Source: an uncultured Gammaproteobacteria bacterium
Lineage (GTDB): Bacteria > Pseudomonadota > Gammaproteobacteria > HK1
Direction: 5' to 3'
Assembly: GCA_958295465.1 (NCBI GenBank)
Contig: OY282353.1
Coordinates: 2,533,001-2,597,000, forward strand
DNA length: 64,000 nt
Under the pieces are notes generated by a model. It did not search any database and was not told the DNA's origin. It saw only the letters and a program-made list of their open reading frames with translations. The position numbers and the translations under genes are program-made. Below, one piece after another: positions 4,033 through 57,728 of this stretch (its first letter is position 1; the number at the start of each line of letters is the position of its first letter).

Positions 4033-4153
4033 CGGCGATTGTTGCCAGATCCGGAAACGTCCATAGGACCACCGCGGCCGGATACCCGGACAACAGGGAG
4101 CGCTGCGAAATGCGACGACACGACCGTGTCCGGAGCATCGGCGGGAACCGCTG
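4033..4153 (-). repeat. MITE-like 122-bp repeat, copy A (diverged)
   Basis: Same length and order of conserved blocks as the better preserved copy at 51346-51467 read on the opposite strand: GGAAACGTCCAT, GACACGACC, then GCGGGAACCGCTG. The termini have decayed. It sits between the DGR template remnant and the ATPase gene at 4244, so it probably carries or borders that gene's promoter. Confidence 0.65.
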
Positions 4154-4243
4154 CCGTCCCCCGCCCGGCCAGTGCGATTCCACGCTGCGGATCGGTGCCG
4201 TCCCGCGGGCGCACCGGTACGCGGCAAGTGCCATAATCGACCC

Positions 4244-19154: not shown

Positions 19155-19523
19155 TCACGCATGGCGACCGATCGGGGATCGCGACCCCGCAAAGCCCGAC
19201 CGGCGGGACCCGCTCTGGTAGCGGGCGCGCGGCTCGTGAAGCTGCCTGTACGTCTCCACGTAGATGGAATCGCGCGGGCCGAACGCGACCACCTCGATGT
19301 CTTCCCGGAGCCGATAGATGATCCGGAAACGCCCCACCCGATAGCTGCGAAGGCCCTGGAGCTCGTTGCGGAGCGCCTTGCCGCCATACGGGTCTCGAAT
19401 CAGCACTTCGAGCGCGGCTCGGACCTTGCGCTTGAGCATGGGATGGAGGCCGCGGACGAGTGCCGCGACCTCGTGCGGGACTCTCAATCGGCGGGGCGGC
19501 GACACCCGGCCGGATCCCGCCAC
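19155..19523 (-). CDS. RelE/ParE-family toxin
   Basis: 122 residues including an extended C terminus. The RelE core is residues about 14-95: VPHEVAALVRGLHPMLKRKV, LIRDPYGGKALRNELQGLRS, YRVGRFRIIYRLREDIEVVA and FGPRDSIYVETYRQL. Members are ribosome-dependent mRNA endonucleases or gyrase inhibitors. The start is GTG at 19523, seven bases after the antitoxin stop; a second GTG at 19502 is possible. The last 25 residues (Arg/Ser/Gly-rich) are not part of the family core. Confidence 0.85.
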   Translation of the reverse strand: MAGSGRVSPPRRLRVPHEVAALVRGLHPMLKRKVRAALEVLIRDPYGGKALRNELQGLRSYRVGRFRIIYRLREDIEVVAFGPRDSIYVETYRQLHEPRARYQSGSRRSGFAGSRSPIGRHA

Positions 19524-19529
19524 CGGCCG

Positions 19530-19790
19530 CTACTCGAACAGCTCTTCAAGCGTGTAGAGCCTGCTCCGTTTTTCTTTCAGCGCCTGCAGGCCCTCCAGGA
19601 TGTCCCGCATCAGGCCCGCGTCCGCGCGCACTGCCAGGGTCTCCTGCCAGCACCCGTACTCGTCGGCGCTGACGAGCACCGCGACCGGCGTGCCGTTGCG
19701 GGTGATGACCACCTCTTCGTCCCGGCTGTTCACGTCATCGATCAGGCGGCTGAGCTTCGCCTTGACTTCGGAGAGGGGCAGAGTCTTCAT
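19530..19790 (-). CDS. Phd/YefM-family antitoxin
   Basis: 86 residues. It starts MKTLPLSEVKAKLSRLIDDV, the N-terminal DNA-binding half of Phd/YefM proteins, then VITRNGTPVAVLVSADEYGC, the signature core, and a C-terminal helix DAGLMRDILEGLQALKEKR that would bind the toxin. It lies directly upstream of the RelE-like toxin in the same direction, so the pair should be one autoregulated operon with its promoter near 19800. Confidence 0.88.
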   Translation of the reverse strand: MKTLPLSEVKAKLSRLIDDVNSRDEEVVITRNGTPVAVLVSADEYGCWQETLAVRADAGLMRDILEGLQALKEKRSRLYTLEELFE

Positions 19791-19865
19791 GAGCGCAGAA
19801 ATGGACCAGAATTCGGGACAGACTAGACGCGACTCGTGACCTTGTCAAAAGCAAACACATCGGGA

Positions 19866-19987
19866 CAACAATTCCCGCTAAGCGCGAGAACGTCCGAAGA
19901 TCCGTCATGATCAGGCGCTCCGGCCATCGGAAATCGCTCGATATCGCATCGTGACATCGCGTATCGGGACGTTAGCGGGAACTGCTG
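19866..19987 (-). repeat. MITE-like 122-bp repeat, copy B
   Basis: Left end CAACAATTCCCGCTAA and right end TTAGCGGGAACTGCTG are near-perfect inverted repeats, and the interior matches other copies (GAGAACGTCC, then GGGACGTTAGCGGG). It lies just upstream of the Phd/RelE operon, so it may provide or border its promoter. Confidence 0.8.
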
Positions 19988-20118
19988 ACATCGGGATGCG
20001 CCTCCCGGTGGCCTGCAAGGCCGCGCGCGACAGCGTGCGTAGCGGCCAAGGCGACTCCGGGGCGGCGCCGTACTGGGTCGCATTCCACGCCTCTCGCTCT
20101 GCGGGGCTTCCACTACGT

Positions 20119-24669: not shown

Positions 24670-26751
24670 ATGCCAAGCCGATACGCCGAACTCCACGCGC
24701 GCTCGCTCTCGGACCCGGAATCGTTCTGGGCCGAGGCGGCGGAGGCCATCCACTGGACGAAGCGCTGGGAGCGCGTGCTGGACGACTCGAACCCCCCGAG
24801 CTACCGGTGGTTCACCGGCGGGGAGCTCAACACCTGCTACAACGCGCTCGACCTCCACGTCGAGAACGGCCGCGGCGATCAGGCGGCCCTCATCTACGAC
24901 AGCCCCGTCACCGATACCGGACGCCGGTACACCTATGCCGAGCTGCGCGACGAGGTCGCGTGCTTCGCCGGCGTGCTCGCCGGGCTGGGCGTGGGCAGGG
25001 GCGACCGGGTCATCGTCTACATGCCCATGGTCCCCGAGGCGATTATCGCGATGCTCGCCTGCGCGCGGCTCGGGGCGGTGCATTCGGTGGTGTTCGGCGG
25101 CTTCGCTTCGAGCGAGCTGGCGATGCGCATCGACGATGCGACGCCGGTGGCCATCGTCTCGGCGTCGTGCGGGGTCGAGCCGGGCCGAGTGGTCGAGTAC
25201 AAGCCGCTGCTCGACGGCGCGATCGAACTCGCCGCCCACAAGCCGCGCGCCTGCGTCATCCTCCAACGGGAAGGGCGACCGCTGGTGCGGTCGCTTGACG
25301 ATTCCGCTGCGCGGAATCGCGGGGAGGAAGGGCGACCGCCGGCGCGGTCGCTTGGCAATTCCGCTGCGCGGAATCGCGAGGGGGAAGGGCGACCGCCGGC
25401 GCGGTCGCTTGGCGATTCCACCGCGCGGAATCGCGGGCGGGAAGGGAACAGGTTGGTTCCCTGCGAGCTCGTCGAAGGGCGCGACGTCGACTGGGCCGAG
25501 GCCATGCGCGGCGCCGAGCCGCACCCCTGCGTACCGGTCGCCGCCACCGATCCCCTCTACATCCTCTACACCTCCGGCACCACCGGCCAGCCCAAGGGTG
25601 TGGTCCGCGACAACGGCGGGCACGCGGTCGCGCTCAAGTGGACGATGAAGCACATCTACGGCGTCGAGCCGGGGGAGGTGTACTGGGCGGCGTCCGACGT
25701 CGGCTGGGTCGTCGGACACTCCTATATCTGCTACGCGCCGCTGCTCAACGGCAACACCACCATCGTCTACGAGGGCAAGCCGGTCGGCACCCCGGACGCT
25801 GGCGCGTTCTGGCGGGTGCTTTCGGAGTACGGTGTCTCGGTGCTGTTCACCGCCCCCACCGCGTTCCGCGCGATCAAGCAGCAGGACCCGGAGGGGGCGC
25901 TGATCGGGCGCTATGACCTCAGCCGGTTCCGCACGCTGTTCCTCGCCGGGGAGCGGCTCGACCCCGACACCCTCCGGTGGGCACAGTCGAAGCTCGGGGT
26001 CCCGGTCATCGACCACTGGTGGCAGACGGAGACCGGCTGGTCGATCTGCGCGAACTGCATCGGCATCGAGGCGTTGCCGATCAAGGAGGGCTCGCCCTCG
26101 ATGCCCGCGCCGGGGATGGACGTGCAGGCCGTGGACGACCACTGCGCGCCGGTGCCGGCCGGCGAGATCGGCGCCCTGGTGGTGAAGCTGCCGCTGCCCC
26201 CGGGCACCCTGCCCACCCTGTGGAACGCCGAGCAGCGCTTCCGCGACGCCTACCTCGTGGAGTTCCCCGGCTACTACAAGACCGGCGACGCCGGCTTCAT
26301 CGACGAGGACGGCTACGTCTTCGTGATGACCCGCACCGACGACGTCATCAACGTGGCCGGACACCGGCTCTCGACCGGGGCGATGGAGGAGGTGCTCACC
26401 TCCCACCCCGACGTGGCGGAGTGCGCGGTGATCGGGGTCGCGGACGCCCTGAAGGGACAGCTCCCGCTCGGCTTCCTGGTCCTGAACGCGGGTTGCGGGC
26501 GTGCGCCGGACGAGATCTGCAACGAGGTCGTCAAGCTCGTGCGCGAGAAGATCGGCCCGGTCGCGGCGTTCAAGACCGCGGCGGTGGTGCCGCGGCTCCC
26601 CAAGACGCGCTCGGGCAAGATCCTGCGCGGGACGATGCAGAAGATCGCCGACGGCGACGAGTGGAAGATGCCGGCGACCATCGACGATCCCGAGATCCTC
26701 GGCGAGATCACCGGGGCGTTGCGGGGGGTCGGTTACGCGGGCGGGGGATAG
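24670..26751 (+). CDS. prpE: Propionyl-CoA synthetase with three palindromic in-frame inserts
   Basis: 693 residues versus about 630 for PrpE. Motifs: WTKRWERVLDDSNPPSYRWF at the start, YTSGTTGQPKGVVRDNGGHA (phosphate-binding loop, about 300-310), WWQTETGW, and the catalytic lysine in KTRSGKILRG (about K650). It activates propionate to propionyl-CoA. Residues about 201-257 are three 19-residue repeats (GRPLVRSLDDSAARNRGEE and variants) encoded by a 57-bp double-hairpin unit; the normal sequence resumes at LVPCELVEGRDVDWAEAM. The insert lies in what should be a surface loop of the N-terminal domain, so the enzyme may still fold. The start at 24670 follows AAGGGGGATAGCCGA. Confidence 0.92.
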   Translation: MPSRYAELHARSLSDPESFWAEAAEAIHWTKRWERVLDDSNPPSYRWFTGGELNTCYNALDLHVENGRGDQAALIYDSPVTDTGRRYTYAELRDEVACFAGVLAGLGVGRGDRVIVYMPMVPEAIIAMLACARLGAVHSVVFGGFASSELAMRIDDATPVAIVSASCGVEPGRVVEYKPLLDGAIELAAHKPRACVILQREGRPLVRSLDDSAARNRGEEGRPPARSLGNSAARNREGEGRPPARSLGDSTARNRGREGNRLVPCELVEGRDVDWAEAMRGAEPHPCVPVAATDPLYILYTSGTTGQPKGVVRDNGGHAVALKWTMKHIYGVEPGEVYWAASDVGWVVGHSYICYAPLLNGNTTIVYEGKPVGTPDAGAFWRVLSEYGVSVLFTAPTAFRAIKQQDPEGALIGRYDLSRFRTLFLAGERLDPDTLRWAQSKLGVPVIDHWWQTETGWSICANCIGIEALPIKEGSPSMPAPGMDVQAVDDHCAPVPAGEIGALVVKLPLPPGTLPTLWNAEQRFRDAYLVEFPGYYKTGDAGFIDEDGYVFVMTRTDDVINVAGHRLSTGAMEEVLTSHPDVAECAVIGVADALKGQLPLGFLVLNAGCGRAPDEICNEVVKLVREKIGPVAAFKTAAVVPRLPKTRSGKILRGTMQKIADGDEWKMPATIDDPEILGEITGALRGVGYAGGG
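25271..25441 (+). repeat. 57-bp double-hairpin element, three in-frame copies in prpE
   Basis: Units at 25271, 25328 and 25385, each exactly 57 bp. Each holds two hairpins: GCGACCGC, loop, GCGGTCGC and GCGATTCCGC, loop, GCGGAATCGC. Being a multiple of three, each adds 19 codons (a GRPxxRSLxxSxARNRxxE peptide). A lone copy in inverse orientation lies at 29334-29380. This behaves like a REP or Rickettsia-type palindromic element that has entered a gene. Confidence 0.9.
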
Positions 26752-29027: not shown

Positions 29028-29333
29028 CGGCGGGTCTCGGTGCTTCGGGGGCGCGAAGTATAGCGAAGGGTATATGCGGATTGACCGGACTTCCCGGTGT
29101 TGCCCCCCGCGCATGCAGTGCTCGTCTTGCGCGGCACAGAGGCATCCTGCCTCTCCGGCGATGCAACCGGATATTCCGTGTCGTCATCTCGAATTGCGCT
29201 CCATGCTGGAAATCGCATGTGTCGTGGATTGCGATTAACATCGACGCCCGCGTTTCCGGGGTGCCGTATCGCCCCGGTCCGCGCATTGAACAAGACTGTT
29301 CTTCGCCCGTCTGCGGCGCTGGACGGGGCGCCC

Positions 29334-29380
29334 GCGATTCCGCTACGCGGAATCGCCAAGCGACCGCACCAGCGGTCGCC
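29334..29380 (-). repeat. Solo copy of the double-hairpin element
   Basis: Reverse complement of the prpE unit: GCGATTCCGC, TACG, CGGAATCGC then GCGACCGC, ACCA, GCGGTCGC. It ends 17 bases before the yicC start codon, so it will be in the yicC-gmk leader RNA. Confidence 0.88.
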
Positions 29381-29397
29381 GCTCACCGGAGCCGAAC

Positions 29398-42377: not shown

Positions 42378-42557
42378 GGCGGTGACCCGTCACCGGGTAG
42401 AGCTCATGCGAGGTGCCGAGGCAGTTCGCGGGCGGCCCCCGGACCCGGTGGCGGGAATCGTTCGTGACCCGTGGATTCCTGCCCTCGCGAAAACGGGGGC
42501 GGGAATCCGAAGAGCCCGGTCCCGGCCTCGGTCCGGGTGGTCGCCCGGCCCCCTGCC

Positions 42558-45092: not shown

Positions 45093-45160
45093 CAGCAATT
45101 CCCGCTAACGTCCCGAGCATGATCGTGTCATCGGAATTTCGCGGCCTTTTCCGCCGGCGC
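45093..45160 (+). repeat. MITE-like repeat, partial copy C
   Basis: CAGCAATTCCCGCTAACGTC then GTGTCATCGG and TTTCGCGGCCTTTTCCGCC match the first half of the copy at 51346; the other end is missing. It lies between the transporter's last gene and trpL, close to where the trp promoter should be. Confidence 0.75.
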
Positions 45161-49312: not shown

Positions 49313-50047
49313 GAAGACCATTGGGGCGTGTGGCTCGACCTCACCGACGGTGAACTCGACCTGCACGCCGTTTTAGCCTGAAAGTCCTTTGCTTTCTGCA
49401 ACCAATACGTCTTCGGGTAGAAATGTCATGCGATTGCGCCGGGCGAAGCTTGGTGAAGGGGGAAGGCATGTAGAGGGGGAGACATGGCGGAAACCTTCTA
49501 TGCGACCCAGCAGGTGAGAGACCTGACCGGCCAAGGCTGGCCCCCAGCCGGAACCGGGTGTTGCGTGGTTCGGGGGTGACCCCGGCTGCGAAGCGTCCAC
49601 AGGGAGCGTGCAGGCCGCGTGATTGAGCCCCGAAAGAATCATCTCTGCGGAGTCGAGCCGTTTGCATGGCGGAAGACGCCATCCCCGGTCCCGAACGGGT
49701 CTGGGTCCGGTGCTCCGCCGGGGTCGAAGAGCGGGGCATGGACGCGAGGGTCGTCCAGGAACCTGGGAGGTCTCGTCTTCTCCACCGTGCAGAGGCGGCG
49801 CGGGCGCTGCGGTGAGAAATGGTCCGGGTCCACGGGGAGCGCGTCCCGCCCCGTGGGAGCGAGGGGGGCGCAAGCGGCTGGACCGGCGTTCGTGGCGCGG
49901 GCGGATGGGGTGGGAGCGATTCGGCCGGTTGCGCAAGACCTTTCCCCTCCCCCAAGAGTGCATGGTGCACAGTGCGTACCGTTGCGTAGCGAATCCATAG
50001 TCCGAGGAGCCGGGTGCTCGAATCGGGCACGCCCGGATCTGTGGGAG
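49313..50047. other. Long non-coding stretch, no gene recognised
   Basis: About 735 bases. Open frames on both strands have no recognisable protein similarity. The sequence from about 49500 to 49900 has several possible stems (GGCCAAGGCTGGCCCCCAGC near 49530) and could be the RNA part of a group II intron-like element, but no intron reverse transcriptase follows and I cannot confirm this. Confidence 0.3.
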
Positions 50048-51148: not shown

Positions 51149-51345
51149 CCCGATTCAATCTCCTCACAGGCCGGGACGTATCAAGGTGCACCGCGCGACC
51201 GTTGACATCCGGGCCGCGCGGAGCGAGTCGTCGAACATGAAGCCGTCACCGCGCCGGGCGCCCGGCCCGCTGGCGATGGCGTTTGGTGCGAAGATCGCGA
51301 TCGTACACCAGCAGGGGGCTGATCAAAATCTGGTGATTCCTCTTT

Positions 51346-51467
51346 CAGCAATTCCCGCTAACGTCTCGAACAGGGTCGTGTCATCGGGATTTCGCGGTCT
51401 TTTCTGCCGCCTGAACGTCTGGTCGTGGCGATTCGATGGACGTTTTCGGGCTTAGCGGGAATTGCTG
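51346..51467 (+). repeat. MITE-like 122-bp repeat, copy D (best preserved)
   Basis: Perfect 16-bp terminal inverted repeats: CAGCAATTCCCGCTAA at the left and TTAGCGGGAATTGCTG at the right. The interior holds GTCGTGTCATCGGGATTTCG and GATTCGATGGACGTTTTCGG, shared with the other copies. No coding capacity. Confidence 0.9.
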
Positions 51468-51560
51468 TTCCTCTTTACACACGCGAGCGGCGTCGTCCCG
51501 ATGCGTGCGGTGCCCGGGGTCGGCTGTCCCATACGGTGAAGGCGCGGCAGCGCCCGTGGG

Positions 51561-52075
51561 TCATGTGAGCGCCGGCGAGGGCGGATACCCGAGCCGCGTG
51601 AGCCAGTCGTGGACCCGCTGTCCGGTCACACACTCGTGGGCGCTGGTCCCCTTGTGCCGTCCCCGACGCCGGGTGCGCAGATTGAGCCAGGCGCGGAACA
51701 GTTCGAGCAAGCCCTGGGTGGCGCCTTGATGGACGTCGAGACAGGGGCGCAGCGGCGCATTGCACCCCTCGATGGCACTGGAGGCGCGATGGCGCTGGTG
51801 CAGCACCACTTCGATGGCATGGAGCAGCGAGGCGCTCGCCGCGCCAAGCTGTCCCGCAGGCGGCGAGGAGATGACGAGACAGGGCACGCTGGCGGGCGCG
51901 GTGAGGACGCTTGTTCAGCGCCCCGACCAAGGACCGGCACCGGCGCCCCAGGCTCACCGCCTGCGCTGGCCAATGCTTCGAGCCGGGGCAGCACGCGCTT
52001 GTGGGCCAGCACCAGACCCGGCACCCGGTGGCGCAGGGACTTCGACCGGCTCGTGTGGATGGCGGGTTCGAGCAC
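51561..52075 (-). pseudogene. Transposase remnant (C-terminal part, frameshifted)
   Basis: The clearest frame (51561-51887) reads LHAIEVVLHQRHRASSAIEG, CNAPLRPCLDVHQGATQGLL, RTRRRGRHKGTSAHECVTGQ and RVHDWLTRLGYPPS, a C-terminal block of a common insertion-sequence transposase with the catalytic Glu in AIEG. Upstream codons in a second frame (LVLAHKRVLPRLEAL) continue it, so at least one frameshift is present. Confidence 0.7.
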
Positions 52076-52408
52076 CTCGAATCATCTCACAGGCCCTGTC
52101 CGGCGGGTTCCCGCCTCACTCGCTCCAGCGCCCCTCCTGCTCGACGATTTGTAAAGCAGGGGGACCAGCCCCGTACCATGCGCAATTTCCACTGATTCGG
52201 CTGGCGAAGCTCGACGCCGGGACGCCACTGCCGGGCAGGCAGGACTCGCCCATTCCACAAGACGAGAACCACATGGGCGGTACAATCCTTGGCCAGGCAG
52301 GCTGATCAACCCGGATCCCGCCACACGCTCCCGGCATCGCCGTCGTCGCACGACTCCCGGTGAAGTGGGTAGGATGCCACCCCGCACTCCCGCACCCCGG
52401 AGGCCGAC
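52076..52408. other. Intergenic, nothing recognised
   Basis: About 330 bases between the transposase remnant and the methyltransferase-like gene. No gene is recognisable on either strand. Confidence 0.4.
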
Positions 52409-57540: not shown

Positions 57541-57662
57541 CGGCGATTCCCGCCGACGCCCCGGATCCGGGCGCGCCATCGGGTTTTCGCAGCCTTCTCT
57601 ACCGTCCGGGCATCCGGTCGGGGTGATTCAATGGACGTTTCCGGGCTTGGCGGGAATTGCTG
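57541..57662 (+). repeat. MITE-like 122-bp repeat, copy E
   Basis: Left end CGGCGATTCCCGCCGACGCC is diverged; right end GGGCTTGGCGGGAATTGCTG is good. Interior GATTCAATGGACGTTTCCGG matches copy D. It sits between divergent rpsT and murJ, so it may hold their promoters. Confidence 0.8.
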
Positions 57663-57728
57663 CACCGGCGCCATGCCCTTCTTGTTTCTCCTGCGCATTC
57701 GGCGCCTTTTCGCCCTGACCCCGGATCG

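Follow-up and report, generated by a model that had tools for sequence, protein, structure and literature searches.

A 122-bp repeat dispersed through the genome of an uncultured gammaproteobacterium is, with a probability of about 0.93 on sequence evidence, a non-autonomous type II MITE moved by the transposase of a co-resident insertion sequence (IS). The window, that is, the whole 64-kb stretch analysed, comprises bases 2533001-2597000 of a single contig of 5,675,689 bp. The original prediction of a MITE-like family is sustained by inverted ends, 9-bp target duplications, subfamilies of different age, one site that is empty in a relative, and a candidate helper IS with the same ends. It had overlooked the duplicated targets, the existence of subfamilies, and how large the family is.

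All five copies predicted in the window are present at the expected positions, and the copy at 45093 is indeed partial. The copies and their target-site duplications are as follows.

51346..51467, + strand: subfamily A element, 122 bp, perfect 16-bp terminal inverted repeats CAGCAATTCCCGCTAA (from sequence and the genome-wide family)
51337..51345, no strand: left target-site duplication TTCCTCTTT of the 51346 copy (from sequence)
51468..51476, no strand: right target-site duplication TTCCTCTTT of the 51346 copy (from sequence)
57541..57662, + strand: older subfamily A element, 122 bp, between rpsT and murJ, with 9-bp duplication CACCGGCGC and no counterpart in the sister genome
57532..57540, no strand: left target-site duplication CACCGGCGC of the 57541 copy
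57663..57671, no strand: right target-site duplication CACCGGCGC of the 57541 copy
19866..19987, - strand: subfamily B element, 122 bp, duplication ACATCGGGA
19857..19865, no strand: left target-site duplication ACATCGGGA of the 19866 copy
19988..19996, no strand: right target-site duplication ACATCGGGA of the 19866 copy
45093..45156, + strand: truncated subfamily A copy, left 64 bp only, upstream of a trpE/G fusion gene
4033..4154, - strand: old, degraded subfamily A-like copy upstream of an AAA-ATPase gene

The 51346 element starts with CAGCAATTCCCGCTAA and its opposite end is an exact inverted copy, in agreement with the 16-bp terminal repeats originally described. The 19866 element shares only 69% identity with the 51346 copy and is, judging by its 99% identity with four other copies, a recently active member of subfamily B. 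The copy at 4033-4154 is about 73% alike and its duplication is no longer present. Its alignment score of 69 is nevertheless far above chance, the maximum among 4000 random window segments being 26. Matches to the terminal inverted repeat (TIR) number 6 in the window, compared with 0.15 expected.

Two neighbouring features deserve mention. Genes for a ParE-like toxin and a Phd/YefM antitoxin (19155-19790, - strand) adjoin the 19866 element; the pair had been labelled Phd/RelE. A possible decayed element of roughly 700 bp occupies about 51470-52174, with the 51346 element at its left edge. The edges of this region match about 20 places in the sister genome G003, many of them located at the ends of contigs, and a 355-bp stretch in its middle is 99% identical to a sequence at G000:C1:2315423.

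The genome-wide search proposed with the original prediction reveals a large family. When up to two mismatches are allowed, the end sequence occurs 128 times in the genome, compared with 2 matches for a reversed control pattern. The fetched loci of the chromosome yield 67 two-ended copies (58 plus 9 more), a number that represents a lower bound. Within the searched range of element lengths, from 105 or 110 up to 140 bp, 46 of 58 two-ended copies are exactly 122 bp long. One subfamily C copy, at G000:C1:1183250-1183385, measures 136 bp owing to the expansion of a C run close to its left end. The TIR is 16 bp, with 0-8 mismatches in total per copy. The element contains no gene-like open reading frame, its frames being open merely through brevity. 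The GC content is 60% in the element and about 67% in the flanks.

The target duplications, another proposed check, are 9 bp long. They are perfect in 33 of the 67 copies and match at 8 or more of the 9 positions in 50. Among the first 58 copies, 29 have identical 9-bp flanks and 45 reach at least 8/9, as do five of the nine further copies. Cross-paired flanks of different copies reach 8/9 in 0.06% of cases, corresponding to a chance of about 0.0006 per copy. Compared across copies, the duplications show no clear consensus.

Four main subfamilies with common ends can be distinguished: subfamily A has 26 copies with a mean identity of 82%, B has 17 copies with 90% (several of them identical), C has 4 copies, and D has 10 copies with 95%. 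Subfamilies A and B are 69-72% alike, suggesting that their interiors are probably related. The original observation that copies differ in age is borne out by the subfamilies, some of which are old and others of which contain copies 97-100% identical. In addition, a young copy interrupts the end of an old copy (1705525-1705763). A tandem pair of different subfamily B copies at G000:C1:475895-476148 has the 9-bp sequence GCAACGCTA at both outer sides and between the copies, which suggests a second insertion into the same target.

A search for a transposase gene with the same ends, also proposed at the outset, identified a sole intact candidate helper. This IS spans 1621 bp (G000:C1:55332-56952), carries one gene of 438 aa, and is flanked by the 9-bp duplication ACCGTCCAG. 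Its ends are CAGCAATTCCCGCTAA and CAGCAATTCCCGCTTA, with the shared pattern CAGCAATTCCCGCT(A/T)A. Relics of related ISs are found at five other places. The similarity of the 122-bp element to the IS extends over 16-21 bp at the ends, and the MITE interiors have nothing in common with the IS past 18-21 bp of the ends. The element thus need not descend from this very IS.

By its predicted structure (mean pLDDT 84), the 438-aa protein is a DDE transposase with a Tn5-type fold. The model matches Tn5 transposase along most of its length, with a Foldseek E-value of 5.7e-12 and a VIA-align Z score of 23.6 over 359 residues. Lower VIA-align Z scores were obtained for piggyBac, ISCth4, and many RNase-H folds, which were taken as background from a common fold. 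At the sequence level, the protein gives a weak match to Pfam DDE_Tnp_1, below the cut-off. The DDE triad is composed of D131, D220, and E337, with spacings of 88 and 116 residues. Relatives of the transposase occur in Gammaproteobacteria, Bacteroidetes, Desulfocapsa, and Cyanobacteria, and a 33%-identical cyanobacterial relative is labelled 'ISNCY family' by NCBI. Relatives from two MAGs, one of Gammaproteobacteria and one of Bacteroidetes, and from the sister genome possess CAGC-type (CAGCAATTCC-type) ends and exact 9-bp duplications. Subfamily D, with ends CAGCAATTTCCGC, resembles a sister-genome IS with ends CAGCGATTTCCGC. A 657-bp form of the 1621-bp IS, derived by internal deletion and flanked by an 8/9 duplication, is also present in the sister genome and illustrates how non-autonomous forms can arise.

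Comparison with the sister genome G002 provides a record of mobility. Its orthologous rpsT-murJ region is without the 57541 element and contains the 9-bp target once, in slightly diverged form. Both genomes carry an element at the sites of three other insertions, 1117307, 5623403, and 2192088. Another copy in G002 shares 99% identity with the 51346 element and is flanked by an 8/9 duplication of its own. The empty site, the shared insertions, and the identical copies together show that the elements moved both before and after the split of the two species. The 51346 copy and a sister-genome copy at 1006199 lie upstream of the same gene; a shared insertion was rejected in this case because the flanks differ. 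Relatives are too divergent around the 19866 site for a precise empty site to be read. Among 369 genomes of the class, a sample drawn without G002 and G003, a stringent two-ended pattern matched only the window's own genome. Both sister genomes carry copies. The element has no match in the phage and plasmid collections or in the viral contigs searched.

The original prediction also held that the copies may spread promoters or operators. The elements would then be promoters, operators, or RNA regulators kept by the host for their action on adjacent genes, which appears improbable. Their location is compatible with such a role: 56 of 58 copies are intergenic according to a home-made codon-usage gene caller, in surrounding sequence that is 78% genic, and most lie near a gene start. 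In the window, the claim that four of five copies are near gene starts is even exceeded, as all five have a start on at least one side. However, intergenic position alone predicts the same, and the proximity does not stand as a signal. A start lies within 150 bp of 34 of the 56 intergenic copies; for intergenic points drawn at random from these loci the share is 51%, and the difference is not significant (p = 0.18).

The folding and conservation of the element lead to the same result. A full-length transcript forms a hairpin with z of -3.9 to -5.7, but the interior alone folds no better than shuffled sequences (z -1.0, +1.4, and -1.0), indicating that the hairpin consists of the inverted ends only. 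No sigma-70-like site is present in 51200-51600, nor were promoter-like sites found in the four subfamily consensuses at a looser cut-off; promoter and terminator scans likewise found none. An Rfam scan of the window detected no RNA family at the copies, Rfam being a collection that does not cover ERIC/REP repeats. Three orthologous copies are 92-98% identical and their flanks 84-98%. The elements are therefore not more conserved than their flanks and give no sign of constraint. Single insertions may affect neighbouring genes.

A palindromic repeat of the REP/BIME or ERIC kind, not moved by an IS-type transposase, is a still less probable identity. Such repeats would share the fixed length near 120 bp, the intergenic location, the palindromic ends, and the many copies, but this reading conflicts with the target duplications of most copies, the empty site at the 57541 position in the sister genome, and the presence of an IS that matches in both ends and duplication length. 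Chance matches of a short GC-rich sequence, the counter-case to the original prediction, have nothing but the GC-rich background in their favour and can be set aside in view of BLAST E-values down to 1.7e-51 between the element and other copies, the excess of end matches over the control, and the 9-bp duplications.

The type II MITE is most likely mobilized in trans by the 438-aa transposase, given the identical ends and duplication length. The transposase of the intact IS, or of decayed sister copies, would bind the shared CAGCAATTCCCGC ends, cut the element out, and paste it at a 9-bp staggered cut in the fashion of Tn5-type transposases. The interior of about 90 bp would need no role except holding the ends apart. 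Selection against insertions in genes would account for the survival of copies in intergenic DNA. One point against this mechanism is that a single intact transposase gene is left for more than 60 copies. A more tentative possibility, which we consider rather unlikely, is that the helper belongs to a widespread, not formally defined branch of Tn5-fold ISs (CAGCAATTCCCRC-type ends, a 9-bp duplication, and no YREK motif) supporting several co-existing 122-bp MITE subfamilies. If true, a branch with several subfamilies at exactly 122 bp would imply a length constraint on transposition.

The window contains several other features. A match to the Rfam group II intron model (D1D4-6, 113.7 bits) is located at 49517-49733 on the + strand and may be an ORF-less or decayed intron, as no same-strand gene was called beside it. 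A 40-nt repeat around GGATTCCCGC...GCGGGAATGAC is present in three copies, at 42462, 49208, and 59475, and is reminiscent of the Neisseria dRS3 repeat. Three tandem 57-bp units with internal palindromes lie at 25268-25446, with an inverted copy 4 kb away at 29331-29387.

A literature search with the end sequence returned a single, unrelated paper, and no earlier description of the family was found in the literature searched. As far as this search extends, the family is new, although its kind is already known. On the side of the helper, the closest known system is the IS4 family with Tn5/IS50, which is defined by the YREK motif, Y(2)R(3)E(6)K (PMC2266710). The helper resembles these ISs in its Tn5-type fold, its CA ends, and its DDE spacing, which falls within D(60-110)D(100-150)E. 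The duplication, which measures 9 bp in the IS and in three relatives, likewise lies within the 7-13 bp (about one helix turn) of the family. However, the YREK motif is incomplete: R333 and E337 fit, but position 330 is G rather than Y and the K is at 345 instead of 344.

On the side of the element, MITEAba12 of Acinetobacter, associated with ISAba12, is a close parallel, 113 bp long with 16-bp inverted ends, 9-bp duplications, and near-constant length (PMC6382973). The sequences are unrelated, including the ends (the ISs tabulated there start with GGCTTTGTTGC). In addition, MITEAba12 is 78% AT and has predicted outward-facing sigma-70 promoters, in contrast to the GC-richer, apparently promoterless 122-bp element. 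In both cases, similarity to candidate parent ISs does not go beyond the ends, and MITEAba12 is described as trans-mobilized. Type II MITEs in general are shorter than 500 bp, have TIRs of 4-30 bp and duplications on younger copies, reside in intergenic DNA, and resemble ISs only in the TIRs (PMC10969869). MITEs are usually AT-rich (PMC10969869), unlike the present element. The 122-bp element agrees with the type II description in size, lack of coding capacity, TIR length, and constant 9-bp duplication, and its assignment to type II follows from the confinement of IS similarity to the ends. It adds a well-documented MITE family and a probable helper in an uncultured gammaproteobacterial genus, and its constant length across subfamilies only about 70% alike offers a handle on whether transposition needs a set spacing of the ends.
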